Shown: positions 50,326-62,549 of the stretch, piece by piece | Layout of the letters: each line of letters begins with the position of its first letter | Position numbering within the stretch: position 1 is the stretch's first letter | Assembly: GCA_021811185.1 (NCBI GenBank) | Contig: JAJZPL010000011.1 | Location: forward strand, 1-64,000 | Length of the DNA stretch: 64,000 bases | Direction: 5' to 3' | Source: a bacterium | GTDB lineage: Bacteria > Elusimicrobiota > Elusimicrobia > Elusimicrobiales > UBA9959 | The notes under the pieces: model-generated | What the model was told of the DNA's origin: nothing | What the model saw: only the letters and a program-made list of their open reading frames with translations | Databases searched by the model: none | Position numbers and translations under genes: made by a program

Positions 50326-51162
50326 TTACAGGAAGGGCGAGTAGACCAGGCGGTTTATCCGCCGGTTCAACAGGCTTTCTGGACGGGAGTAGAATTTCTG
50401 GGGGAACTTCAGGAAGACGGTGTTGCCTTTCACGTAGAGTTTCTCGTTCACCGCCGGGTGCTCCAGCTCCAGCGAGCAGATTCCGCATTCCCTTTTGCAG
50501 CGTATCCCGTCGGCCGAATCCTCCGGCCCGGTGTCCGGCATGCCGCTGACGCAGGTCCTGGCGCTGGTCATGTTGAGGTACGGGTAATGCAGCGTAAGCG
50601 AGAGCTGGTCCGGCCTGAAGCCCATGGCCTTGGCGGCGCCGAAATTGTTGGCCAGCGTGCTGCCGGTGGTGGAGAGTTCGAAGCGGCGCACGCCCAGCCC
50701 GGCGAACAGTTTAACGGCCCCGCCGTTGAGCACGGTCAGCCTGGCCCGCGTGACGAAGAAGATGTTGTCGTAGAGCAGCCGCCCGGCGTTGAGGGCGAGG
50801 CCGAGGCCCGTTTCGCGCGCCAGCTCCAGCGCCCCCAGGTCGTTCACGGTCACCTCAATGCCTTTGGCCGCGCGCGGGTGCTTTTTGCGCAGCGCGGCCA
50901 GCCGGCGGAACACCGGGCGCAGGACGCGCAGGCCTTTCTCGGAGAGCGGCGGGGTCAGGAAGCAGACCTTGGCGCCTTTCCCGAGGTAAAAAAGCGCTTC
51001 TTTCTCGTGCCAGGCGGGGGTCTGCAGCAGGTTCTCGCAGAACTCGGCGCCGGTATAGAACCAGTCGAAGCGCTCCAGCGCCCCGGCCAGGGCCCCGGTC
51101 TTTTCCAGCGCGGCCGAGCCGGCTTCGCCCAACCTCAGGCCTGTTTCCAGCACGTTCTTCAT
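50326..51162 (-). CDS. U32-family (peptidase U32/UbiV-like) protein, second of a pair
   Basis: The 278-residue protein overlaps the preceding U32 gene (ATGA, 51159-51162) and shares the U32 barrel logic: VTVNDLGALELARETGLGLALNAGRLLYDN and FELSTTGSTLANNFGAAKAMGFRPDQLSLTLHYPYLNMTSARTCVSG. Cysteines in TCVSG and the CKRECGICSLELEHP cluster could bind an iron-sulphur centre as in UbiU/UbiV, TrhP or RlhA. Paired U32 proteins often act as a heterodimer. It is co-transcribed with a radical-SAM gene; start ATG 51162 follows from the overlap. Confidence 0.65.
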   Translation of the reverse strand: MKNVLETGLRLGEAGSAALEKTGALAGALERFDWFYTGAEFCENLLQTPAWHEKEALFYLGKGAKVCFLTPPLSEKGLRVLRPVFRRLAALRKKHPRAAKGIEVTVNDLGALELARETGLGLALNAGRLLYDNIFFVTRARLTVLNGGAVKLFAGLGVRRFELSTTGSTLANNFGAAKAMGFRPDQLSLTLHYPYLNMTSARTCVSGMPDTGPEDSADGIRCKRECGICSLELEHPAVNEKLYVKGNTVFLKFPQKFYSRPESLLNRRINRLVYSPFL

Positions 51163-52100
51163 TCGCCCTTCCATGCGGTCATCCGCCGTATGAACTCTTC
51201 CCTGCCCGCCGCCGCCCCGAACTCGGCGGTAAGGTTTTCCGCCAGGTCCGCCATCCGGCGCAGCTCGCGCACCTTGCGCGCCTTGACCGCGGGCGGGTCC
51301 AGCCGCACTCCGTACTTGAGCCAGCCGACTCCGAGCCGGTAAAAATCGTAGAACGAGGCGGCGTTGTACAGCCTCGGCGCGCCGCCGCAGCCCATGCGCC
51401 GCGCCACGCGGCCCGCAACGGCCGGGGCTTCGCCCGCGCGGAGCGGGTTTATGTCGAACAGCTTTACCGGCAGCGCCGTTCCGGCGCCGCAGCGGCACAG
51501 CCCGCCTTCGCGCGTTTTGCCGCGGAAGGTGTGGTAAATGCCGGTGTGCAGGTTGCAGCGCCCGTTCACGTACACGCAGCCGAAGAAGCGGTAATCGAAA
51601 ATTTCCGTGTCCAGGCCTTCCCGGCGGCAGAGGCGCAGGATCTCGCCGGCTTCGAGGGGAGCCAGCTGGCTGGGCAGGATCAACCGCTTGATGCCGAAGC
51701 GCAGGAAGAAGCGCAGCGCGGCGCTGTTGAAGCAGGGCTGCACGGAGCTCAGGTGGAGCTCCGCCCTGAGCTTGCGGCGGCCCGAGGCGAGCAGGCTGAG
51801 CAGCGAGGGGTTCGAGACGATGAAAGCGTCGGCGCCCTCGTCCTCCAGCCTGAAAACGGTATCGGCGAGCGCCCGCATTCCCGCGGCGTCCTTGAGGACG
51901 TACATGGAGTTCAGCGCTACCAGCGCTTTCTTGCCGAACGAATGGATGATACGGAAGGCCGCCGGCAGTCCGCCGCGGCCGCGCAGGCAGGCCTGGGTGA
52001 AGGAGGGCAGGCCCGCGGCGGAGGTGTAAAGCTCGTCCGCGCCGGCCTTCACGAGCGGCTCGATCTCGGAATGCTCCAGGTAGCAGGAAACTATTTTCAT
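51159..52100 (-). CDS. U32-family protein, first of a pair
   Basis: The 313-residue protein has VSCYLEHSEIEPLVKAGADELYTS, then VALNSMYVLKDAAGM, DAFIVSNPSLL and LRAELHLSSVQPCFNSAALRF. The cysteine cluster FGCVYVNGRCNLHTG followed about 20 residues later by GGLCRCGAG corresponds to the four-Cys 4Fe-4S site of U32 proteins (NGRC as in the family's SGRC). Members hydroxylate RNA or act in ubiquinone synthesis; in this radical-SAM setting a protein or cofactor substrate is possible. It starts 4 nt after the radical-SAM stop. Confidence 0.75.
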   Translation of the reverse strand: MKIVSCYLEHSEIEPLVKAGADELYTSAAGLPSFTQACLRGRGGLPAAFRIIHSFGKKALVALNSMYVLKDAAGMRALADTVFRLEDEGADAFIVSNPSLLSLLASGRRKLRAELHLSSVQPCFNSAALRFFLRFGIKRLILPSQLAPLEAGEILRLCRREGLDTEIFDYRFFGCVYVNGRCNLHTGIYHTFRGKTREGGLCRCGAGTALPVKLFDINPLRAGEAPAVAGRVARRMGCGGAPRLYNAASFYDFYRLGVGWLKYGVRLDPPAVKARKVRELRRMADLAENLTAEFGAAAGREEFIRRMTAWKGE

Positions 52101-52104
52101 GCGC

Positions 52105-53025
52105 TCAGAACCTCTCCGGATTTATCAGCCCCGGGTTTAAAGATGAGGGTTTCAGTTCGGCCAGGCCGCGGATCCTGGCGTAGTCCGCCCGGGCGCCGCA
52201 GCAGGCCGGGGCCAGCGTGCAGCGTGAGCAGGCCGCGCAGCGCGCCCGGTGCGCCACGCCTTCCTCGAACACCTCGTCCCCCCGCAGCCAGCGCTGGAAC
52301 TCGAATGAGAAGCCCTCGAAGCCGGGCAGCCGGCAGAGGGGAAAATTCTGGACCACGGCCCTGAGCCCGGAGAGTTTAAGCTTGGCCAGCGCCAGCCTGA
52401 GGTAGGGTTCCACGGCCGAGTAAGGCGGCACCAGCCCCGGGTCGTCGTTAACGCGGCCGGCGTTGCGCACGAAAGTGAAGTTAACGAAAGCGGCCCCCGG
52501 CAGGTTCTTCGCGGCCCAGGCCGCGAAGGCCGGCAGCGCCTTGTAGTTGAAAGCCGAAATTATATGGAACAGGCGGACCTTCTCCTGCGCGCCGCAGGCC
52601 TTGAGGTTCATGAGGCCTTTGAGCGCCAGCGGGAACTTGACGCTGCGTGTGGCCGCCGCGTAGATCTCCGGCAGGTGGGACGGGAAATTGACCGTGAAGT
52701 ATTCTATCTCGGCCGCCGCTTTTTCGCAGAAGGCCGCGTCGGAGAGCGTGACGCCGTTGGTGGAGAGCATGAAGTGCTCTACGCCGGCTTTCTTTAGCCT
52801 GGCTATCAGCGGGAAAAAATCCGGGTCCGCCGTCGGCTCGCCGCCGCCCTCAAGGCTGACGGCTTTTATCTTCCTGCGCTTTATGGCCGCCAGCGCGGTC
52901 TTGAGCGGCGGCATTTTCCCGTCCGGGGGGTTCTGGCAGTAAGCGCAATAAATATTGCAGGTGCGCGCGGCCTGCACGCAGAGCTGCTCGCTGATCCAGG
53001 AAGAATTCTTTTTTACAGGAGGCAC
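52105..53025 (-). CDS. Radical-SAM protein with C-terminal cysteine cluster, divergent arm of the Hxs-like locus
   Basis: The 306-residue enzyme has the 4Fe-4S motif CNIYCAYC (Cys23, Cys27, Cys30), SLEGGGEPTADPDFF (the GGE-type SAM contact) and a SPASM/Twitch-like C-terminus CAACSRCTLAPACCG near 275. Such C-terminal clusters are typical of peptide-modifying enzymes. The start is a GTG at 53025 with no clear Shine-Dalgarno. It leads an operon with the two U32 genes, divergent from the Hxs-like operon across a 266-bp region. Confidence 0.82.
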   Translation of the reverse strand: MPPVKKNSSWISEQLCVQAARTCNIYCAYCQNPPDGKMPPLKTALAAIKRRKIKAVSLEGGGEPTADPDFFPLIARLKKAGVEHFMLSTNGVTLSDAAFCEKAAAEIEYFTVNFPSHLPEIYAAATRSVKFPLALKGLMNLKACGAQEKVRLFHIISAFNYKALPAFAAWAAKNLPGAAFVNFTFVRNAGRVNDDPGLVPPYSAVEPYLRLALAKLKLSGLRAVVQNFPLCRLPGFEGFSFEFQRWLRGDEVFEEGVAHRARCAACSRCTLAPACCGARADYARIRGLAELKPSSLNPGLINPERF

Positions 53026-53181
53026 GGCTTTATTCTATCATTCCGCCCGATGCCGTTCCTACCTTTTTAATGCCGCGTAATGGCTGGTCCTGCCGGCCTG
53101 GCAGCTTGGCTGCCGGGTTAAGGCCGGATCCGCGGCGGTTTTGCCCTAAAGAGGCGGCGCCCAGCGTTAATATTATACCCG

Positions 53182-53210
53182 TTGAAAATGACAATATTAT
53201 GTGTTAGACT
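53182..53210 (+). promoter_or_regulatory. Sigma-70-type promoter of the Hxs-like operon
   Basis: TTGAAA (53182-53187), exactly 17 nt, TAGACT (53205-53210), the best-formed housekeeping promoter in the window, 82 nt upstream of ATG 53292. Confidence 0.7.
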
Positions 53211-53222
53211 ATATCATTAGGC

Positions 53223-53236
53223 GCTAGCTGCAGCTA
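53223..53236. promoter_or_regulatory. Palindrome TAGCTGCAGCTA in the Hxs-like operon leader
   Basis: A perfect 12-bp palindrome begins about 13 nt after the -10. TTTAGCTGCTG around 53256 repeats half of it. It is placed where an operator or translational control element could act; no binding protein is identified. Confidence 0.35.
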
Positions 53237-53291
53237 ATGCTTTTGGTTTGGGTATTTAGCTGCTGCCGTGCCGGCCCGGAAGGGAGGTTTT

Positions 53292-54155
53292 ATGGAAACC
53301 ACCAGGGAAATTATGGTTAATTTGAGTTTTTCCAACAGGAAGGCCGTTCTGTTCCTGTCTTTTTTCTTTATAGCCTGGCATCCCGGTTTCCTGGGTTCCG
53401 AGACCCTTACCCTTACGACCTATTACCCCGCCCCCTACGGCGGCTATGTGGGCCTGCTTACTACCGGCGGCACCGCCGCCGCTCCGATAAATACCGTCCT
53501 GGCCCGTACCGCCGGCGCCGGCAACGTGCTGATCGGCATGGCCACCCAGGCCGCAGCGCCTGTACCGCAGTCGAAACTGGACGTGAACGGTAGTTCACGT
53601 TCTTCCGGGGAAATTACCGGGACGATGTCGGACGGGGTCGCTGTGGCGCAGTTCCGCGCCATATCGGGCAACTTTCCGGCCGCTATGATCCGCAACGACG
53701 GCACTAATACTTACATGCCGCTCTTTACGAACAGCGGATCTCCGTACAGCGGGTGGAACGGGTTGCGGCCTTTGTATGTTAATAATACGAGCGGCGACGT
53801 TTCCACCGCGGGCGGCCAGGTCGTTACGCGGCATAGCGACGGCGCCATACTCATGTACGGCTCCGGCGGGATCGCGATGAGCGGCACCGGCGGCATCGCT
53901 ATGAACAGCTCCGGCGGTATAGCGTTTAACGGCACCGGCGGTATTACCGGGCTATGCCGTACCGTTCCGTTCGGGATGGGCTGGAGTAACACGTGCAACG
54001 GCAACGAAACTCCCGTAACCACGTATGGGGACGGCGTCGTGCGTATGTGCGGCATGTTCCAGGCCGGTGGCGCGCTCAATGTGGGCACCCAATGGACCAG
54101 GTATTGCTTTGGCGGGGATTGGGCCGGAAGTCTGGTCTGCTGCCGCATGAAATAA
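53292..54155 (+). CDS. Exported cysteine-containing protein with GGIA repeats, candidate target of the radical-SAM locus
   Basis: The 287-residue protein has a hydrophobic signal (about 17-35), then ETLTLTTYYPAPYGGYVGLL, a motif I recall at the mature start of many Elusimicrobiota/Omnitrophota exported proteins. Near residues 190-222 an 8-residue unit repeats four times ([GS][ST]GGIA[MF][SN]). The C-terminal 65 residues hold six Cys, ending LVCCRMK. It has the best promoter and ribosome-binding site (GGAAGGGAGG) of the locus and is directly followed by hxsD/hxsB-like genes. A substrate role is inferred from position. Confidence 0.6.
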   Translation: METTREIMVNLSFSNRKAVLFLSFFFIAWHPGFLGSETLTLTTYYPAPYGGYVGLLTTGGTAAAPINTVLARTAGAGNVLIGMATQAAAPVPQSKLDVNGSSRSSGEITGTMSDGVAVAQFRAISGNFPAAMIRNDGTNTYMPLFTNSGSPYSGWNGLRPLYVNNTSGDVSTAGGQVVTRHSDGAILMYGSGGIAMSGTGGIAMNSSGGIAFNGTGGITGLCRTVPFGMGWSNTCNGNETPVTTYGDGVVRMCGMFQAGGALNVGTQWTRYCFGGDWAGSLVCCRMK

Positions 54156-54166
54156 AGGAGTGCATT

Positions 54167-54646
54167 CTGTCCACTGCTAACAATGTTTTGCGGGTAGACC
54201 TGAAGAAGAACACGCTTAACGCCGTGCGTTACGCCGCTTACTCCGTGAGCGGCGACGCTTACGTTTTGGTAAAAGCGCTGCCGAAGGGCGGGGCGGCGGT
54301 GGAAATAACGCCCAAGCCCGGCTCCCGCTGCCGGCCCGCGGAACTCGTAAAGCGCTTCCGCCTAGAGCTCGAGGACGAGCGGCTGCGCGAGCGCATCGCC
54401 GCCGGCAACGGCGAGCTGCGCGAGTTCCTGCTCCTCAAAGCCATAAATTACCAGCCCGCGCCCGAGGCGCAGGACGACTCCGGCCTTACGCCCCGGCAGG
54501 AAAAAGAACTTAACGACCTGATAGCCCAGATAGAGGGCGAAATAAAAGCCGAATCAGCCAAGGGCGCTTCCACGGACCCCCTGGGGATAACCAGCACGTG
54601 GGAAGACAAGTATGACTCCAAAAACAGCCGCAAAAAAAACCGCTGA
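54167..54646 (+). CDS. HxsD-like protein (His-Xaa-Ser system), probable non-ATG start
   Basis: The product (about 159 residues) has LNAVRYAAYSVSGDAYVLVKALP and later FRLELEDERLRERIAAGNGELREFLLLKAI, matching the HxsD pattern from the His-Xaa-Ser radical-SAM system. No ATG exists in frame. An AAGGAG at 54155-54160 sits 6 nt before CTG 54167, so CTG is the likely initiator; ATT 54164 and TTG 54188 are alternatives. The C-terminus (about 90-159) is a charged linker absent from short HxsD proteins. It overlaps hxsB by 35 nt. Confidence 0.65.
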   Translation: MSTANNVLRVDLKKNTLNAVRYAAYSVSGDAYVLVKALPKGGAAVEITPKPGSRCRPAELVKRFRLELEDERLRERIAAGNGELREFLLLKAINYQPAPEAQDDSGLTPRQEKELNDLIAQIEGEIKAESAKGASTDPLGITSTWEDKYDSKNSRKKNR

Positions 54647-56075
54647 GCGCGCCGCTCCCGCCGTTCCCTATTTCAACTTCCGCCGCCTCTCCGGGGGCAG
54701 GGTATTGCTGTCCAACGATTCCGGCGCTTTTATCGAACTCTCCGGCGGGGAATTTTCCCTGTATTCTTCCGGCCGCCTTAAGCCCGGCGCGCTGCGCTCC
54801 GAGCTCGAGGCCAAGGGCTTCGTGCGGGACATGATGGATTTCGACGGGCTGGCCTCCGCCGCTTCCAGGCGCAACTCTTTTCTGAATTCTGGCCCGGGGC
54901 TGCACATCCTGGTGATGACGCTCCGGTGCAATCACAAGTGCCTGTACTGCCAGTCCAGCGCGGTGGGCGCCGACGGCGGCCGCGAGACCGATATGAGCCG
55001 TAAGGTGGCGCGCCGCAGCGTGGACTTCGCGTTGCAGAGCCCCGCGCAGGGCATCACGATAGAGTTCCAGGGCGGCGAGCCGCTCCTTAACTGGGACACG
55101 CTCAGCGACACGGTGCTTTACGCCCGCGCCGCTGCGAAGAAAAAAAAGAAGGAGGTGAGCCTGGCTCTGGTCTCCAATTTCAGCCTGATGACCGAGGCCA
55201 AGGCGAAGTTCCTGCTGGAGAACGAAGTGTCCATCTGCACCTCGCTCGACGGCCCGGCCGCGCTGCATAACGCCAACCGGGTCTATGCCTGCGGCAACTC
55301 GCACGCTTCCACCGGGCGCTGGCTTGAATATTTTTCCGGCAAGGCGGCCCGCCAGTCCCCGGACTACAAGGTCTTCAGGCCGAGCGCGCTGCTCACCGTC
55401 ACCCGCGCCTCGCTGGGCCAGGGAAAGAAGATAGTGGACGAATATGTCCGCCTCGGGCTGGAGGACGTTTTTCTCCGGCCGCTTGCGCCGATAGGCTTCG
55501 CCCGGAAGCTCTGGCCGAAGATAGGCTATACCCCCGCCGAGTTCTCCGCTTTTTACCGTTCCACGCTGGAATACATACTTAAATTGAACGCCGCCGGCAC
55601 CAGGATGCGCGAGCGGAACGCGATGATCCTGCTTGCGAAGATGCTCAACGGCGCCGACCCCGGCTTCCTGGACCTGCGCTGCCCCTGCGGCGCGGCCATA
55701 GGTCAGGTGGCTTACAATTACAACGGCGACCTTTATACCTGCGACGAGGGCCGCATGGTGGGTTGGGAGGGAAACGACCTGTTCAAGGCCGGCAACGTGC
55801 TGAAGGATTCCTACCGCGACGTCATTCTTTCCCCCGCGGCCAGGGCCTGCGCCGCGGCCTCCACGCTGGACTCGCAGCCGCAGTGCTCGCGGTGCGCCTA
55901 CAAGCCTTACTGCGGCGTCTGCCCGGTCTACAATTACGAAACCCAGGGTTCGCTCTGGGGCGACATGGCCTCCAGCGGGCGCTGCTCCCTGTACCTTGAC
56001 CTTTTCGACACGCTGGCTGAGCTGCTTAAGAAGCCGGCCAGCGCCGCGATACTAAAAGGATGGGTGGCCAAATGA
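54612..56075 (+). CDS. hxsB: HxsB-like radical-SAM maturase
   Basis: The 487-residue protein has the HxsB N-terminal domain (YFNFRRLSGGRVLLSNDSG). The radical-SAM site follows, HILVMTLRCNHKCLYCQ (Cys106, Cys110, Cys113), then DMSRKVARRSVDFALQSP with IEFQGGEPLLNWDTL. The SPASM region is CPCGAAIGQVAYNYNGDLYTCDEG plus CSRCAYKPYCGVCPVYNYE. All are HxsB features known from the His-Xaa-Ser system. It presumably modifies a peptide or protein target with two auxiliary iron-sulphur clusters. Flanked by two HxsD-like genes, with ATGA overlap to the second. Confidence 0.85.
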   Translation: MTPKTAAKKTAERAAPAVPYFNFRRLSGGRVLLSNDSGAFIELSGGEFSLYSSGRLKPGALRSELEAKGFVRDMMDFDGLASAASRRNSFLNSGPGLHILVMTLRCNHKCLYCQSSAVGADGGRETDMSRKVARRSVDFALQSPAQGITIEFQGGEPLLNWDTLSDTVLYARAAAKKKKKEVSLALVSNFSLMTEAKAKFLLENEVSICTSLDGPAALHNANRVYACGNSHASTGRWLEYFSGKAARQSPDYKVFRPSALLTVTRASLGQGKKIVDEYVRLGLEDVFLRPLAPIGFARKLWPKIGYTPAEFSAFYRSTLEYILKLNAAGTRMRERNAMILLAKMLNGADPGFLDLRCPCGAAIGQVAYNYNGDLYTCDEGRMVGWEGNDLFKAGNVLKDSYRDVILSPAARACAAASTLDSQPQCSRCAYKPYCGVCPVYNYETQGSLWGDMASSGRCSLYLDLFDTLAELLKKPASAAILKGWVAK

Positions 56076-56377
56076 AGCCAGTAAAGGACCAGCAGGAAAT
56101 TTTTTTAAGCGGCGCCGTTTATACCCGCCAGGCGGTTGAGCTGGCGGCGGCGGTTTTCGAGGGCCGCTGTGCGGTGCTCGTTGCAGAGGCCCCCGGCGGC
56201 CTGAAGGTTTTTGTGACCGGCGGCCCCGGCGCGGCCGGGGAATTCGCCAACGAAGCGCTGAACCAGCAGTGCAGACTGGACCTGCATCCCGTGAATTCCA
56301 GGATAGCTTCCATCATAGCCACCAAGGCCCTTCTGTCGGCCGCCGGGGAACAGCCCGGGAAGCGCGTAAAAAAATGA
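56072..56377 (+). CDS. Second HxsD-like small protein
   Basis: The 101-residue product reads VYTRQAVELAAAVFEGRCAVLV then EFANEALNQQCRLDLHPVNSRIASIIATKAL, the HxsD outline (initial strand-helix, then an [EF]xNExLxQxCR helix). It overlaps hxsB (ATGA, 56072-56075) and the next gene (ATGA, 56374-56377). Two different HxsD-like proteins beside one HxsB suggest distinct carrier or leader-binding roles (inference). Confidence 0.65.
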   Translation: MKPVKDQQEIFLSGAVYTRQAVELAAAVFEGRCAVLVAEAPGGLKVFVTGGPGAAGEFANEALNQQCRLDLHPVNSRIASIIATKALLSAAGEQPGKRVKK

Positions 56378-57408
56378 GGAAGTGGGCCGTGCTGGCGCTG
56401 GTGCTTTTCCTCGCCGCCGCGGCTCTTTTCCAGTACGCCAGGCGCAGAGACGCGCTGCGGAAAGCGGCCGCCCCCGAACTGAAGCGGCAGAACCTGCTGC
56501 CCGCGGCGCTGCTGGCCGTTCCGCCTGTTTCCGGACCGCCCGCTACTTACGGCGCGCTGCCCACGGTAAAGGATATAGTTTATGACCGCGGTTCCTGTTC
56601 CGGCGGGTCCGTTAACGATATCCTTTCTTCCCACGGCCGGATCTGGGGTTACGCGGCCTCCACCCGCGCCTTCAGCCCGCAGGAGACCGAGGCTGTCTAC
56701 AGGCTGCTGACCTCTTATTTTTCCTGCGTCGGGCTGGCAAAAAAGACTCCGGCCTATTGCGATTACCTGCCGGCCGAAAGCGGGGATAAGGACTTTGCCG
56801 TCCCGCTGCCGAAAAGTCCTAATTACAAATGCCGCGCCGCCTACCTGGACGTGGCGTTTCCTGGTTTCACGGCGGGGCGCGGGGCCGGGCCGGACTGTCT
56901 TGCCTTCTACGGGGATAATTTCGGCGGCAGCCGCTCCAACATCCGGTCCGGAGACTTCTGCCGCGCGGCGGCAAAAGGGCTTGAGAACCTTTGCGGGGAA
57001 CTCTCCGGCTTTATCAGCAAGGCGGACACCCAAAATTGCCGCAGGGTCTTTCCGGCGAGGCAGCGCGACTGCGGCGATTCTCCAGGCTGTTTCTACCGGG
57101 TGGGGATTTACGAGGCGCTGAAGAGCGGTTCGGCCGAAGCCTGCCCCGAGGATTACCGCGCCGGCTGCGGCGCCTACCTGGCCAGTAGCACGGAAACTTG
57201 CCAGGGCGCGCTGGATGCCCTTGGCGCCGCTTACTGCGGGTACCTGGCCGGGGCGCAGAAAGCGTACGATAACATGGCGGGCTACACTCCCGAAGAAGCG
57301 CAGGAGGCCCTGGCGGCAAAAGCCGAAATGGAGCGCAGGGCGGTGCAGCAAAAAAAACAGGACGAAGAGATCAACCGCCGGGTCAGGAAGATGCTGGGGA
57401 AAGAGTAG
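56374..57408 (+). CDS. Membrane-anchored, cysteine-rich exported protein
   Basis: The 344-residue protein has one N-terminal membrane helix (MRKWAVLALVLFLAAAALF) and an exported body with 14 Cys between about 75 and 300, in short patterns such as CSGG, CRAAYLD, CGDSPGCFYRVG and CGAYLAS. A charged tail follows (EINRRVRKMLGKE). I do not recognise the family. Placed between hxsD-like and radical-SAM genes with an ATGA overlap, it could be a substrate, a scaffold or a periplasmic partner of the A24-like protein. Confidence 0.65.
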   Translation: MRKWAVLALVLFLAAAALFQYARRRDALRKAAAPELKRQNLLPAALLAVPPVSGPPATYGALPTVKDIVYDRGSCSGGSVNDILSSHGRIWGYAASTRAFSPQETEAVYRLLTSYFSCVGLAKKTPAYCDYLPAESGDKDFAVPLPKSPNYKCRAAYLDVAFPGFTAGRGAGPDCLAFYGDNFGGSRSNIRSGDFCRAAAKGLENLCGELSGFISKADTQNCRRVFPARQRDCGDSPGCFYRVGIYEALKSGSAEACPEDYRAGCGAYLASSTETCQGALDALGAAYCGYLAGAQKAYDNMAGYTPEEAQEALAAKAEMERRAVQQKKQDEEINRRVRKMLGKE

Positions 57409-57424
57409 CGGGAACGGATATTTC

Positions 57425-58345
57425 GTGAAACGAATAGACCTGAAAATAGGCTTTGACTGCAATAATAAGTGCGACTTCTGCGCGCAGGGAGGCAAACGGC
57501 TGCGCGTGGGCAGGAAGACGCTCGCGCAGATAAAAGCCGTGCTTAAGCGCGCCAGGGGCGAGGGCGTTACCGGCGTGGTGTTCACCGGCGGCGAGCCCAC
57601 GCTGCACCCGGACCTGCCCGCCGCGGTGCGGGCGGCGCGCGCCATGGGCTATGAGAGCGTGCAGGTGCAGACCAACGGCCGCCGCTTCGCCTATTACGAT
57701 TACTGCCTGGAACTGAAGAAGGCCGGCGTTACCGAGATGGCGCCTTCGATGCACGGTTCCACGTCTGAGATCCACGAGGGGCTGACCCGCGCCGCGGGGA
57801 GCTTTAAGGAAGTGGTGCGCGGCATCATGAACTGCAAAAAGCTTGGCATGTACGTGCTCACCAACTCGGTCATAACCTCGTTGAATTACAGGGACCTGCC
57901 GGAACTTGCCAGGCTGCTGGTACACCTGAAGGTGAACCAGTTCCAGTTCGCCTATGTGCACCTGGTGGGTTCCGCCTGGGAGAACCGCAAATGGCTGGCC
58001 CCGCGGAAGAGCGATGTTATGCCTTATCTGCGCCGCGCGCTCGACGTCGGGATGGCGGGCGGCGCGGGCTGCTATACCGAGGCTGTCCCGTTCTGCCTGA
58101 TGAAAGGCTACGAGCAGTGCGTGGCCGAGCGGGTGATCCCCGAGGGCCCGGTTTCCGACGCCGATTTCTACATAGAAAGCTACGGCGACTACCGCCGCAA
58201 CGAGGGGAAGGCCAAGGGCCCGGCCTGCCGCGCCTGCAAGTGGTTCGCCTCGTGCGAGGGCCCCTGGCACGAATATCCCGAAATGTACGGCTGGGCCGAG
58301 TTCAAGCCGGTAAAGGGGAAGAAAATTCTGAGAGCCCGGAGTTGA
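57425..58345 (+). CDS. Radical-SAM protein 1 of the downstream trio
   Basis: The 306-residue protein starts at GTG 57425. Its radical-SAM motif is FDCNNKCDFCAQGGK (Cys12, Cys16, Cys19) with VVFTGGEPTLHPDL. The C-terminus has CRACKWFASCEGPWHEYPEMYGW, a short auxiliary-cluster site. It shares the middle pattern NSVITSLNYRDLPELARLL with the proteins at 60424 and 61356, marking them as paralogues. The start lies 16 nt after the previous stop. Confidence 0.85.
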   Translation: MKRIDLKIGFDCNNKCDFCAQGGKRLRVGRKTLAQIKAVLKRARGEGVTGVVFTGGEPTLHPDLPAAVRAARAMGYESVQVQTNGRRFAYYDYCLELKKAGVTEMAPSMHGSTSEIHEGLTRAAGSFKEVVRGIMNCKKLGMYVLTNSVITSLNYRDLPELARLLVHLKVNQFQFAYVHLVGSAWENRKWLAPRKSDVMPYLRRALDVGMAGGAGCYTEAVPFCLMKGYEQCVAERVIPEGPVSDADFYIESYGDYRRNEGKAKGPACRACKWFASCEGPWHEYPEMYGWAEFKPVKGKKILRARS

Positions 58346-58375
58346 ACCTCCGCGGCATGCTCCGCCCGACCCCAT

Positions 58376-59272
58376 ATGCCCGATATCCCCTTCTGGAACA
58401 AGTGCAACAATAAGTGCGTGATGTGCACCAACACGCCCGGCTTCGCGCGCCAGCCGGGCGAGGCTTACCGGCTGAAGAGCCAGATAGGGAAACTGGAGCG
58501 CTACCTCAAGGGCCTGGGCCCGGTCTACCTTAAAAACTCCGGCAGCGCGGAATTCGTAAGCCTTACCGGCGGGGAACCTACGCTGCACCCCGAATTTTTT
58601 CAGCTGCTGGCCTACTTCCGGCGGCGCCTGCCCGGCACGCCTATAACGCTGCTCTCCAACGGGCGGCGCTTCTCCGACGAGAAGTTCACCCGCAAGTTCG
58701 CCGCCGCAGCCAGGCCGCCGTTCACCGTGGCCGTGGCGCTGCACGGACCTGCGGCCCGCGTACATGACGCCGTGGCCGGTGTTCCGGGGAGTTTTACGGA
58801 GACCGTGAAGGGGCTTGGGAACCTGGCCGCTCTGGCCCCCGGGGTGCGGCTGGAGATCAGGCTGGTACTGCATAAAAAAAGCATAAAACATTTTCCGGGT
58901 ACGCTTAAATTCCTGCTAAGGAATTTCCCCGACACTTCGCGCTGCCTGGTGGCGGCCATCCATTACGAAATAGAGGGGATGTCGCTGGAAAACCACGCCG
59001 CCGTAGGGCTCAGGCTGGGTGCCTCGGCGAAGGCGCTCAACGATGCCCTGCCGCTGATCCGGCGCTTCGAGAATTTCAGGCTTTACCACTTTCCGCTGTG
59101 CCTGGTCGGGAAGGAGCTCAGGCCGCTGTGCTGGATCACCATCCCGGAAGAGGACAGGGTCTACCCGCCGGGGAAATGCGGCGGCTGCGCGCTCCGGGAC
59201 AAGTGCCTCGGGCTGATGGCGGAGTATTCGAAGATGTTCGGCGACGAAGAGCTCAGGCCGGTGAAAAGATGA
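58376..59272 (+). CDS. hxsC: HxsC-like radical-SAM protein
   Basis: The 298-residue protein has CNNKCVMCTNTPGF (Cys10, Cys14, Cys17), VSLTGGEPTLHPEFFQLL and ITLLSNGRRFSDEKF. It also has VAVALHGPAARVHDAVAGVPGSF and the late PEEDRVYPPGKCGGCALRDKC. The N-terminal MCxxxP and the closing ExDRVYP-C-x2-C pattern match HxsC of the His-Xaa-Ser system. It starts 30 nt after radical-SAM 1 in the same frame, with no strong ribosome-binding site. The stop overlaps the A24-like gene (ATGA). Confidence 0.78.
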   Translation: MPDIPFWNKCNNKCVMCTNTPGFARQPGEAYRLKSQIGKLERYLKGLGPVYLKNSGSAEFVSLTGGEPTLHPEFFQLLAYFRRRLPGTPITLLSNGRRFSDEKFTRKFAAAARPPFTVAVALHGPAARVHDAVAGVPGSFTETVKGLGNLAALAPGVRLEIRLVLHKKSIKHFPGTLKFLLRNFPDTSRCLVAAIHYEIEGMSLENHAAVGLRLGASAKALNDALPLIRRFENFRLYHFPLCLVGKELRPLCWITIPEEDRVYPPGKCGGCALRDKCLGLMAEYSKMFGDEELRPVKR

Positions 59273-60423
59273 AAAACATCTCCCTGTTCTTCCTGGCCGC
59301 TTTTACGGCCTGGGCCGTCTCGGTGGTAAACTGGGACCTGGCCACCAGGAAGATCCCCAACTCCAGCATAAAGACCGGCCTAAAACTGCTCGGCGCGGGC
59401 CTGGCCGCGGTGGGGATGTGCACCTGGCTCGGGTATTCGGGGCGGGGCGCCGATTACCTGACTTACGCTTTTTACCCGCTGTTCGGGCTGCACCTGGCCT
59501 GGTCGGCCCTGGCCGGGGTGATCCTGTGGTACGCGGAGGTCTGGCCGGCCGGGGACGCGAAGTTCTATATTCTGGTCTCGGCCGCGCTGCCCTTGGTGAA
59601 CCCGCAGCTCAGGAACTTCCCCGGCTTCCTGTTCCTAACGCTGCTGATCAACATCTTCGTGGCGGCCTCGCTCTGGGCGGTAGGCACCTACGTGGCTTCC
59701 GGATTTTATTCCGCTTCGCCCTCCGATTTCTTCGCCGAGATATGGCGCGATCTGAAAAAGCGCCTTTCGGACCTGAACGCCGGCGGGCGCGGCGCCCCCG
59801 CGGCCGCGGCCTACGTGCTTAACCTGGGTTTCCTTTTCCTGCTGCAGCAGGTGCTCTCCATGGAGGCCCGGGGGCTGGTGAGCCGGTTCTTCTCCCGCGC
59901 CGATATCCTGTTCTTCTTCGTCTTCATCCTCTGGGATAAGATCGGGGACGTGTTCCGCGACCGGCGCTGGGTGTACGTGAGCACGGTCTGCTACCTGCTT
60001 TATTTCTTCCTGGGCTTTTTCCTGTTCCGCGAACGGTTGTGGCTGATGCTGGGCGGCGCTGCGCACAACGTGCTCAGGTTCAGCCTGCTGCTGTTCTTCG
60101 GCCGCTTCATGCTGGAGTTCCTGATGGAACGAAAGGACATGCGCTACCTTTCCGCCGCCGAGGTGGAGCCGGGCATGGTCCTTTCCGCCAAGGCCGCGCG
60201 TATGCTGAAAAGCAACCCGGCTATGGACGGCCTGTTCGACGATTGCTTCCGCGACGGGATTACGGAAGAGCAGGCCGCCGCGCTGAAGGGGTGGCTGGGA
60301 AAATTGGATGTGGCCGACCCCAAGGTGGAGACGGTGGCCGGGCGGCCCTTCGCGCTGTGGATCTTCGCGGGGGGCGTGCTCTCGCTGCTGCTGAACCGGA
60401 ACCTGGCGGGGCTGCTGAAATAA
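59269..60423 (+). CDS. Prepilin-peptidase-like (A24) membrane protein within the radical-SAM locus
   Basis: The 384-residue integral membrane protein has the two aspartates of A24 aspartyl peptidases in context: Asp23 in NWDLATRKIPN and Asp96 in WPAGDAKFY (GD-x-K). At least eight helices are visible, and the second half (about 185-290) adds helices not found in standard A24 enzymes. A cytosolic tail of about 90 residues (YLSAAEVEPGMVLSAKAARMLK) ends with a final helix. It could cleave the leader of an exported, modified substrate. Overlaps hxsC and abuts the next gene. Confidence 0.7.
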   Translation: MKNISLFFLAAFTAWAVSVVNWDLATRKIPNSSIKTGLKLLGAGLAAVGMCTWLGYSGRGADYLTYAFYPLFGLHLAWSALAGVILWYAEVWPAGDAKFYILVSAALPLVNPQLRNFPGFLFLTLLINIFVAASLWAVGTYVASGFYSASPSDFFAEIWRDLKKRLSDLNAGGRGAPAAAAYVLNLGFLFLLQQVLSMEARGLVSRFFSRADILFFFVFILWDKIGDVFRDRRWVYVSTVCYLLYFFLGFFLFRERLWLMLGGAAHNVLRFSLLLFFGRFMLEFLMERKDMRYLSAAEVEPGMVLSAKAARMLKSNPAMDGLFDDCFRDGITEEQAAALKGWLGKLDVADPKVETVAGRPFALWIFAGGVLSLLLNRNLAGLLK

Positions 60424-61356
60424 ATGACGGGGAAAAAAGGCGCAAAAAAACTCAAGATCGTGCTGTTCACGGGCTACGCCTGCAACAACAACTGCGTCTT
60501 CTGCATAGACGCGGACAAGCGTGCGCTGCCGCAGAAGAGCACGGCCGAGCTGCTGCGCGAGACCGTGCGCGCCAGGAACAGGGGCGCCTATATCCTGGAG
60601 ATCATCGGCGGGGAGTCCACGATCCGCCCGGATTTCAACCGCGTGGTGGCGGCCGCCAAGAAACTGGGCGTCCCGCAGGTCTCCTGCGCCACCAACGGGC
60701 GCGTGTTCGCCGATCCCGCCGCCGCAAAAAAAATAGTGGCCTCGGGGATAGACTCCATAATCTTTTCCGTGCACGGGCCCAACGCCCGCGTCCACGACGC
60801 GCTTACCCGCGCGCCGGGGAGTTTCGCGCAGCTCAAGCGCGGCCTGGAGAACCTGCGCGCGCTGGGGTTCACGCGGATAGGGGGTAATACCACCGTGGTG
60901 AAAAGGAACATGGCCGCCCTGCCGGCCCTGGCCCGCTTTTATCTAAAGCACGGGATAAACAACGTGGAGTATATTTTCGTGGACCCCACCTACGGCGGGG
61001 CGAAGAATAATTTCGGGAAGCTGGTGCCGCGCATTTCCGAGGCGGCCCCGTATATGCGCGCCGCGCTGGCGCTCGGCCGCGCCGCGGGCATGGACCAGTG
61101 GAAAGCGCGCTACGTGCCGCTCTGCCACTTCGGGGACTGCCTGGGCCAGATCAGCGAGACCAACGAGCGGAAACTTTTCCTGACCGAGCACTGGGCTCCG
61201 GATTTCAGGAATACCGACGCCATAGGCTCGCGCGCCGCAGTGAGCCGCCAAAAGACCGCGCGCTGCCGCGGCTGCAAACTGTACGGTGCCTGTGAAGGGA
61301 TATGGGCGGAGTACCTGAAAGTTTACGGCGACCGCGAACTGAAGCGGATGAAATAA
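60424..61356 (+). CDS. Radical-SAM protein 2 of the downstream trio
   Basis: The 310-residue protein has GYACNNNCVFCIDADKR (Cys20, Cys24, Cys27), LEIIGGESTIRPDF (GGE motif with Ser instead of Pro), CATNGRVFAD and FSVHGPNARVHDALTRAPGSF. The C-terminus has CRGCKLYGACEGIWAEYLKVYG. Paralogous to the proteins at 57425 and 61356. ATG begins directly after the A24-like stop and the TAATG overlap couples it to the next gene. Confidence 0.85.
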   Translation: MTGKKGAKKLKIVLFTGYACNNNCVFCIDADKRALPQKSTAELLRETVRARNRGAYILEIIGGESTIRPDFNRVVAAAKKLGVPQVSCATNGRVFADPAAAKKIVASGIDSIIFSVHGPNARVHDALTRAPGSFAQLKRGLENLRALGFTRIGGNTTVVKRNMAALPALARFYLKHGINNVEYIFVDPTYGGAKNNFGKLVPRISEAAPYMRAALALGRAAGMDQWKARYVPLCHFGDCLGQISETNERKLFLTEHWAPDFRNTDAIGSRAAVSRQKTARCRGCKLYGACEGIWAEYLKVYGDRELKRMK

Positions 61357-62549
61357 TGGAAAAGAACCCGAACGGCAAGTGCTACGAGCTGATCCTGAAC
61401 TACAACTGCAACGCGCGCTGCCGTTTCTGCTCGCAGGGAGATTTCGACAAGACGCTGAACGCCCCGTTCGCCAAGATCGCCCGCAATATCTACGCCGCCC
61501 GCCGCGACGGGTACACCCGCCTCGGGCTGACCGGAGGAGAGCCGCTGATACGGCCGGATATCCTTAAGGTGATAGCGCTGGGCAAGTCGGTGGGCTTCCG
61601 TTTTATACGTGTGCAGACCAACGGCATCAAGCTGGCCGACCCCGCCTTCTGCGCCGCGCTGGCGAAGGCCGGACTTACCTTCTGCAAATTCTCCTTTACC
61701 ACCGACAGTGCCAGGGACCACGACGCGCTGGTGGGCGTGCCCGGCGCGCTCGAGAAGGCCCTGGCGGGGCTCGAGAACCTGCGCCGCCTGAAGATCCGCG
61801 TAGGCACGAATATCCTGGTGAACAAACTGAATTACCGCCGCCTGCCGGAGATAATGAAATTCTACCTGGAGCGCGGCATAACAAATTTCGTGATAATTTA
61901 CCCGGTGTACAACGGGGCCATGGCCGTGAACGCAGGGGAGATAGGCGTGAGCCTGCCCGAATGCGCCCCGTACCTGCGAAAGGCCGCGGCGGTGCTGGAG
62001 GCCGCCGGCCTGCCCGGGGAGATCCTGTTCCTGAACACGCCGCCCTGCTTCCTGAAAGGCCGGGAGAAGCTGGCTATCGGCCTGGACCTGTTCAACACCG
62101 TGGTGACCGCCCCGGACGGCCGGCGGACCGACCTGGACGCCAACGCCAACGCGGCCAAGGTTAAGGGCCTGCCGTGCCGGCGGTGCGCGCTGAACAGGAA
62201 CTGCCGCGGCGCGGACAGCTGCTACATAGAGCATTTCGGGTGGAAGGGATTCACGCCGGTGAAGAAGGGCGGCGCGGCGAAACCGGTGAAGAAGTCCGGA
62301 CGCGTCTACTTGTCGGATAACGAGCGGTGCCTGGTGGAGATCCTGCGCCAGAGGCCCGAGGCCTCGACAAAAGAGGTGTTGGAACTTTCGAAGAAGATTG
62401 TGCTGTGCCGCGACTGTTCCGACGGGAACGCGGTGCTGGTTTCGGCCGCCAGGCTGACGGAAAAAGGCCTGGTAAAAAGCCGCCTCGTGAAAGGCGCGTA
62501 CCGCTGGTCTTTCGCCAAACCCTACGCGGAAATAAAAAAACGGCTGTAG
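61356..62549 (+). CDS. Radical-SAM protein 3 with winged-helix-like C-terminus
   Basis: The 397-residue protein has NYNCNARCRFCSQGDFDK (Cys18, Cys22, Cys25), LGLTGGEPLIRPDIL and VGTNILVNKLNYRRLPEIM. A cluster CRRCALNRNCRGADSCYIEHFGW follows near 275-300. From about 310 an extra domain (YLSDNERCLVEILRQRPEASTKEVLELSKK; ARLTEKGLVKSRLVKGAYRW) resembles a winged helix, which might bind DNA or the target protein. It ends the operon; no strong terminator was seen before the convergent gene at 62557. Confidence 0.85.
   Translation: MEKNPNGKCYELILNYNCNARCRFCSQGDFDKTLNAPFAKIARNIYAARRDGYTRLGLTGGEPLIRPDILKVIALGKSVGFRFIRVQTNGIKLADPAFCAALAKAGLTFCKFSFTTDSARDHDALVGVPGALEKALAGLENLRRLKIRVGTNILVNKLNYRRLPEIMKFYLERGITNFVIIYPVYNGAMAVNAGEIGVSLPECAPYLRKAAAVLEAAGLPGEILFLNTPPCFLKGREKLAIGLDLFNTVVTAPDGRRTDLDANANAAKVKGLPCRRCALNRNCRGADSCYIEHFGWKGFTPVKKGGAAKPVKKSGRVYLSDNERCLVEILRQRPEASTKEVLELSKKIVLCRDCSDGNAVLVSAARLTEKGLVKSRLVKGAYRWSFAKPYAEIKKRL

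Follow-up and report, generated by a model that had tools for sequence, protein, structure and literature searches.

The window analyzed here, bases 1-64000 of an 88-kb contig from a 3.1-Mb draft genome of an Elusimicrobiota bacterium, carries an operon (53292-62549, plus strand) with a divergent arm, which on balance we favor reading as an expanded variant of the His-Xaa-Ser (Hxs) protein-modification system that acts on the repeat protein HxsA and is tied to a dedicated envelope fibre. This reading is carried by the gene content of the locus, by the membership of its HxsB and HxsA in their families, by a linkage kept among related genomes, by distinct lineages of paralogues and by the association of a C-terminal CC tail with the Hxs-linked copies of a fibre-like protein, here called EXP. 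A description of the Hxs system by Haft and Basu is cited in PMC9062424. Among the open-licence literature matches listed, a scope outside which most subscription journals fall, none reports experimental work on Hxs chemistry or cellular purpose, and the Hxs names are mentioned in passing only.

Gene content of the Hxs-type operon

Six open reading frames encode radical S-adenosylmethionine (SAM) enzymes (52105 on the minus strand, named rS0, and 54612, 57425, 58376, 60424 and 61356 on the plus strand), all carrying CxxxCxxC together with a C-terminal CxxCx5C, in agreement with the six genes counted in a preliminary description made from the sequence. The operon is ordered EXP, D1, HxsB, D2, CYS, rS2, HxsC, A24, rS4 and rS5, and neighboring genes overlap or abut along the whole locus, as expected of the tightly overlapping operons described there. 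HxsB, a radical-SAM/SPASM maturase (54612..56075, +), passes the equivalog cut-off of its family (TIGR03978, 471.5 bits, cut-off 370). The HxsC-like radical-SAM enzyme (58376..59272, +) has HxsC as its best match, under the cut-off (TIGR03977, 164.8 bits versus 267.9), and TIGR03976 is the best match of both HxsD-like proteins, D1 (54167..54646, +; 29.8 bits) and D2 (56072..56377, +; 17.0 bits), each under the cut-off of 50. The reading of D1 from a CTG start agrees with the N-termini of its relatives. All four products proposed as Hxs proteins, two HxsD-like ones among them, thus match Hxs models, HxsB alone above cut-off. The best match of the HxsC4-like enzymes rS2 (57425..58345, +) and rS4 (60424..61356, +) and of the HxsC/C4-like rS5 (61356..62549, +), which has a C-terminal extension, is HxsC4 (NF038332), with 145.2, 150.1 and 85.0 bits, respectively, far under the cut-off of 500, indicating that they are relatives of HxsC4 and not members of that family. 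A paralogue of rS5, 46% identical, lies at contig positions 80821-81981. With HxsB above its cut-off and the paralogues best matching Hxs models, the locus is of the Hxs type and expanded by paralogous maturases and an A24 homologue, as had been proposed.

The operon also encodes two membrane proteins. CYS (56374..57408, +) has 14 cysteines and a single N-terminal hydrophobic segment, which confirms the earlier account of a 14-Cys membrane-anchored protein in mid-operon; its own copy has no Pfam match, and the family gave no convincing Pfam or solved-structure relative. Twelve or 14 cysteines are present in 26 of 27 CYS proteins and eight in the remaining one, and these cysteines are probably disulfide-paired. 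The A24 (prepilin-peptidase-type) membrane protein (59269..60423, +) has a C-terminal soluble domain and shares with the A24 prepilin peptidases (PF01478) the common D...N and GDxK motifs and several hydrophobic segments. PF01478 matches 9 of 19 members of the family (best 2.9e-6) and the window's own copy gives no match. The residues that make the protein A24-like, as described earlier, are conserved: D23 is nearly invariant (the called start of one member lies downstream of it) and G95-D96-x-K98 is invariant, D96 standing in PAGDxK. We take D23 and D96 to be the catalytic Asp pair. Besides the unmatched own copy, the protein differs from PF01478 peptidases in an extra conserved C-terminal part and in that no pilin gene was recognized alongside it.

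Conserved linkage, HxsA and the lineages of HxsB

Gene order was compared by gene calling and clustering in 24 contig pieces from 23 genomes, our own included, which were picked for long contigs; the relatives' genomes are drafts. The linkage is kept: HxsB was present in 23 of the 23 genomes, D2 in 22, D1 and CYS in 21, rS2 and A24 in 20, HxsC and rS5 in 19, rS4 and HxsA in 18 and rS0 in 17, while EXP was found in at least 18, a lower bound because the gene was uncalled in G050 and on another contig in G012. The gene clusters of the divergent arm, which contains a U32-family gene, were present in 13 genomes. By motif count, the superlocus so formed holds 10 radical-SAM genes within 30 kb in our own genome and at most 18, within 49 kb, in G040; HxsB has one to four copies. 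Genes for phoH, in the pieces of 14 genomes, and bamA, in those of 12, stand at the EXP end where present, and genes that by eye are OTC-like, cysteine-desulfurase-like and M20-peptidase-like are scattered in the superlocus.

The preliminary description stated that no HxsA exists here. This is true of the window's operon and wrong for the contig: an HxsA of 105 aa lies beyond the window at contig positions 79170-79487, about 25 kb downstream of the first HxsB and 17 kb past the operon end. It follows a second HxsB (76538-77959) and a second CYS (78078-79157), from which it is separated by 12 bases; further radical-SAM genes stand on the opposite strand past it. This HxsA passes the cut-off of the NCBIfam family HxsA4 (NF038313, 69.8 bits versus 55) and shows a charged leader, a hydrophobic segment and an AxA-Q end, together with 15 His-Xaa-Ser units, of which most keep a (Ser-His-Gly)n register. 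HxsA4 matches were found in 53 of the 59 genomes of the source's Elusimicrobiota family, 47 of them above cut-off, and HxsB above cut-off in 54 of the 59, as opposed to none of 62 sister-family genomes. Both genes are missing from four genomes (G020, G023, G037 and G057), completeness being 60-68% in three of these, and the two genes disagree in three genomes (HxsB only in G004 and G052; HxsA with a partial HxsB in G029).

In many relatives HxsA stands within the main operon right behind CYS, and CYS directly precedes it in 18 of 19 cases; main operons of the G000 type have no HxsA. The C-terminus of HxsA occurs in two forms, RGGWC in 12 of 19 and GSHGSY in the remaining 7, both being present in one genome (G007). 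Six of the seven GSHGSY-type proteins, our own included, follow a second HxsB-CYS pair, and the seventh (G041) lies in the main operon. In three loci of another family of the same class (L172, L176 and L185) HxsB copies are in tandem and the HxsA tails read CRGGWCCPRC or CRGGWCNPRC, a Cys-richer end. We rejected the idea that HxsA is a true collagen: the Pfam Collagen match (4.1e-6) reaches 26.9 bits versus a cut-off of 27.2, and some of the Gly positions hold Ala or Ser instead. The SEEGK motif and the hydrophobic stretch prompted the idea that the HxsA leader is a prepilin signal of the Flp type and is cleaved by the A24 protein, which we keep as a possibility only, given that no Pfam pilin family matched HxsA and that the AxA-Q end would suit an ordinary signal peptidase.

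To place the HxsB copies, we used a tree of 82 rows, midpoint-rooted for drawing only, in which rows from outside the 24 pieces, except two plasmid rows, were trimmed to start 100 residues before CxxxCxxC. The copies that precede HxsC formed one clade (12 rows, 100/99) and those that precede CYS-HxsA a separate one (6 rows, 100/100). A third lineage, of 13 rows (100/99), was joined (100/99) by second HxsB copies of a different family in this class, a grouping that suggests one or more duplications older than the family. The copies beside D1 and D2 do not form one clade and require three changes. Judged from this tree, several HxsB copies are old and position-specific, suggesting that they have different jobs.

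The Hxs locus of the Aeromonas salmonicida plasmid NC_009349.1 likewise combines the maturases HxsB and HxsC with HxsD and a His-Xaa-Ser HxsA behind an apparent signal sequence. It consists of hxsD-hxsB-hxsC-hxsA only, whereas the superlocus described here has one to four HxsBs, HxsC-like paralogues, two HxsD-like proteins, EXP, CYS and A24; a plasmid search with A24 and CYS as queries gave no match. The HxsA found here is of the (SHG)n type with a leader other than that of the plasmid HxsA, and lacks the C-terminal domain of the latter, which by eye resembles peptidoglycan-binding domains.

The fibre-like protein EXP and the divergent arm

EXP (53292..54155, +; 287 aa), the first gene of the operon, is laid out as an N-terminal SETLTLTTYYPAPYGGY, a middle resembling trimeric fibres and a C-terminal tip domain with a CC tail. 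Residues 91-162 match PF21446, the Gp34-type fibre trimerization domain, with 50.6 bits, above the gathering cut-off of 27. The middle also matches phage tail-fibre PHROGs and gives weak profile matches to PDB entries 8ol4 and 8ojn and weak structure matches, 8onc and 8ond among them being titled as Bdellovibrio fibres; the tip is predicted with a pLDDT of 80-89. The mosaic adhesive trimer (MAT) fibres of Bdellovibrio have a fixed N-terminus, a fibre middle and a variable C-terminal tip and are typically ~1,000 aa long (PMC10769870). EXP shares this plan and, on weak matches, may be homologous to MAT fibres; it differs from them in its smaller size, another N-terminus (TTYYPAPYG), a small CC-tailed tip and its tie to Hxs enzymes. 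EXP and CYS had been put forward as two exported cysteine-containing proteins. The N-terminal hydrophobic segment of CYS fits this, and for EXP the signs are weaker, being its look and a helix at residues 15-28 of the predicted structure, with no segment above threshold in a hydropathy scan; judging from that model, EXP is probably exported.

EXP was also described as a GGIA-repeat protein leading the operon. Its position stands, and the repeat fails as a mark of a substrate: four units are present in our own EXP, none in the EXP of 19 relatives, and 0 of 87 further EXP-type rows has at least two units. Since the repeat is missing from relatives, we excluded it as a substrate signature. Of the 59 family genomes, 49 encode the N-terminal motif TTYYPxPYG, and the 62 sister-family genomes show no copy of it. 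By hand tally among 294 genomes of the phylum, 44 of the 45 that bear the motif have HxsB above cut-off, and 31 HxsB genomes are without the exact motif; the exact DNA pattern used passes over TTYYPAPSG, a form present in another family. Nine TTYYPxPYG sites are encoded on a complete Omnitrophota chromosome (CP070807.1) that has no HxsB above cut-off, and 28 EXP-type loci fell to 27 genomes, 23 of them without HxsB above cut-off (the 27 include four Elusimicrobiota, one of which, G331, shares the HxsB coordinates of family member G027 and is the same genome). The presence of the motif in genomes, Omnitrophota among them, without HxsB above cut-off argues against it as the Hxs target. We read the nine sites of this chromosome as a distinct family of fibre-like surface proteins, dispersed over it and varied at the C-terminus.

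The C-terminus of EXP behaved differently from these two motifs. Of 80 EXP loci, 43 read EXP-D1-HxsB, 8 were cut off by contig ends and 29 were unlinked; an HxsA match was found in 26 of the 43 linked loci, some of which are short. A CC tail was present in 46 of 46 Hxs-linked EXP proteins versus 5 of 36 unlinked EXP-type proteins, counted without correction for ancestry, or 5 of 41 if five contig-end loci, none with CC, are taken as unlinked; these counts omit EXP matches of the 80 loci that lack the motif (5) or stand at a contig end (5). The linked loci with the tail include two outside the family, in an Omnitrophota (L161) and in another Elusimicrobiota family (L164). The EXP of L173 (STYYPAPSG), left uncounted because it lacks the exact motif, has a CC tail as well. 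As far as the sequences go, the CC tail thus goes with Hxs linkage. Near EXP in relatives, a barnase-type RNase with a signal-like N-terminus is encoded in 14 of the 23 genomes and a barstar in 13; the one RNase searched matches PF00545 (5.5e-13) and the two barstars searched match PF01337 (2.2e-22 and 3.9e-21); examples lie at L059:4285-4860, L043:11299-11691 and L045:9779-10165, and none at the window's own locus.

The divergent arm comprises rS0, a U32 protein and a gene without a family match. rS0 (52105..53025, -) is an HxsC-like radical-SAM enzyme with CxxxCxxC and an auxiliary Cys motif (TIGR03977, 62.5 bits, cut-off 267.9). A U32 pair had been proposed to follow it; the first gene (51159..52100, -) encodes a peptidase-U32-family protein (PF01136, 7.2e-13), and the second (50326..51162, -) has 0 family matches and belongs to cluster 31, present in 6 of 23 genomes. 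The nearest curated name of the U32 protein is UbiU (NF047963, 50.4 bits versus 440). UbiU and UbiV act in oxygen-independent hydroxylation, and by analogy the U32 protein may be of this O2-independent type. The "good" sigma-70 promoter noted earlier exists as a consensus match and carries little weight, being one of 5 in 13.5 kb versus 2.4 ± 1.6 in shuffled sequence; three of the five fall inside the divergent intergenic region or at its edge. An Rfam scan of the window gave a tRNA as its sole match. On contig C45 (66140-68238; L007:4140-6238) an rS0-type radical-SAM gene is paired with a gene that by eye is cysteine-desulfurase-like; in 11 of 23 genomes a member of the latter's cluster lies close to the Hxs superlocus. 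A protein of 841-862 aa, NifH-like by eye, is encoded with a neighbor of cluster 44 in or beside the superlocus at G018:C7 68512, G041:C18 34721 and G050:C40 49596; we take it as possibly a nitrogenase paralogue of groundwater Elusimicrobia.

A proposed pathway and its alternatives

From these genes we infer substrates, order of steps, export and assembly as follows. Cytoplasmic HxsB, HxsC and the HxsC-like paralogues, with HxsD-type partners in a recognition role, would probably modify precursors before export. Going by the family, HxsA, with its (Ser-His-Gly)n repeat and conserved leader, would be the client, possibly joined by EXP. Modified proteins would be exported by their own N-terminal signals, the A24-type peptidase may trim one of them, and membrane-anchored CYS may keep the products in place or link them, so that the operon would encode its own set of envelope partners: the EXP fibre with its CC-tailed tip, CYS and A24. 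EXP and CYS could be substrates or partners. A precedent for multiple modification of tandem repeats comes from TvgB, a radical-SAM enzyme that turns the TVGG repeats of the precursor TvgA to cyclopropylglycine according to a report (PMC9062424) that places TvgB in cluster 40 and an annotated enzyme, HxsB, in cluster 2; the modification at the Hxs locus here is a prediction. Tentatively, and with rather low confidence, we extend the pathway to a more specific proposal for Elusimicrobiota and one or more Omnitrophota genomes, in which the expanded Hxs system would modify an adhesive surface fibre: HxsB and HxsD would modify the CC-tailed tip of EXP, use CYS to fasten to EXP the (Ser-His-Gly)n rod of a modified HxsA, or do both.

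A division of labor, in which D1 and the first HxsB act on the Cys-containing tip of EXP as the client of the main operon and the second cluster, HxsB2-CYS2-HxsA, serves HxsA, is possible and in our judgment rather doubtful. D1-HxsB has a closer tie to EXP than to HxsA, Hxs-linked EXP is marked out by the CC tail, also at the two loci outside the family, the HxsB2 copies are a lineage of their own and G000-like main operons do without HxsA. However, many relatives have HxsA directly after CYS in the main operon, and the tip could be a plain adhesin domain stabilized by disulfides, its modification being a prediction. In an unlikely alternative, the U32 arm and the HxsC-like paralogues would serve to produce a cofactor or another small molecule and would only happen to lie next to a small Hxs system. 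The paralogues do score against MoaA and NirJ, and genes of OTC-like, cysteine-desulfurase-like and M20-peptidase-like appearance are interspersed in the superlocus, but these scores are lower than those against HxsC and HxsC4, each paralogue has an Hxs model as its best match, and the paralogues abut Hxs genes, with clusters present in 17-20 of 23 genomes. Still less credible is a secreted antibacterial or competition product with the fibre as its delivery or targeting part, to which the barnase-type RNase and barstar genes near EXP in relatives and the resemblance of EXP to adhesive fibres would point; the pair is absent from our own locus, the window's operon has no secretion or toxin gene and the HxsA repeats look structural.

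The locus links Hxs to concrete envelope proteins, with the CC tail as a sharp sequence marker and a list of conserved parts. What is new is the superlocus itself, in which radical-SAM genes number as many as 18 and HxsBs one to four, several of the latter in position-specific lineages. That one bacterial family kept and multiplied Hxs points to a core function at the cell surface and not to an optional natural product. A poorly understood modification system gains a testable target, in that the cluster probably reworks an exported His-rich protein and is accompanied by a fibre-like protein ending in CC. If the fibre or the repeat is indeed modified, the product would be a new surface material made by radical-SAM enzymes, and a modified fibre, with a Gly-Ser-His repeat that resembles collagen, would open a new class of appendages, fibres modified by radical-SAM enzymes.

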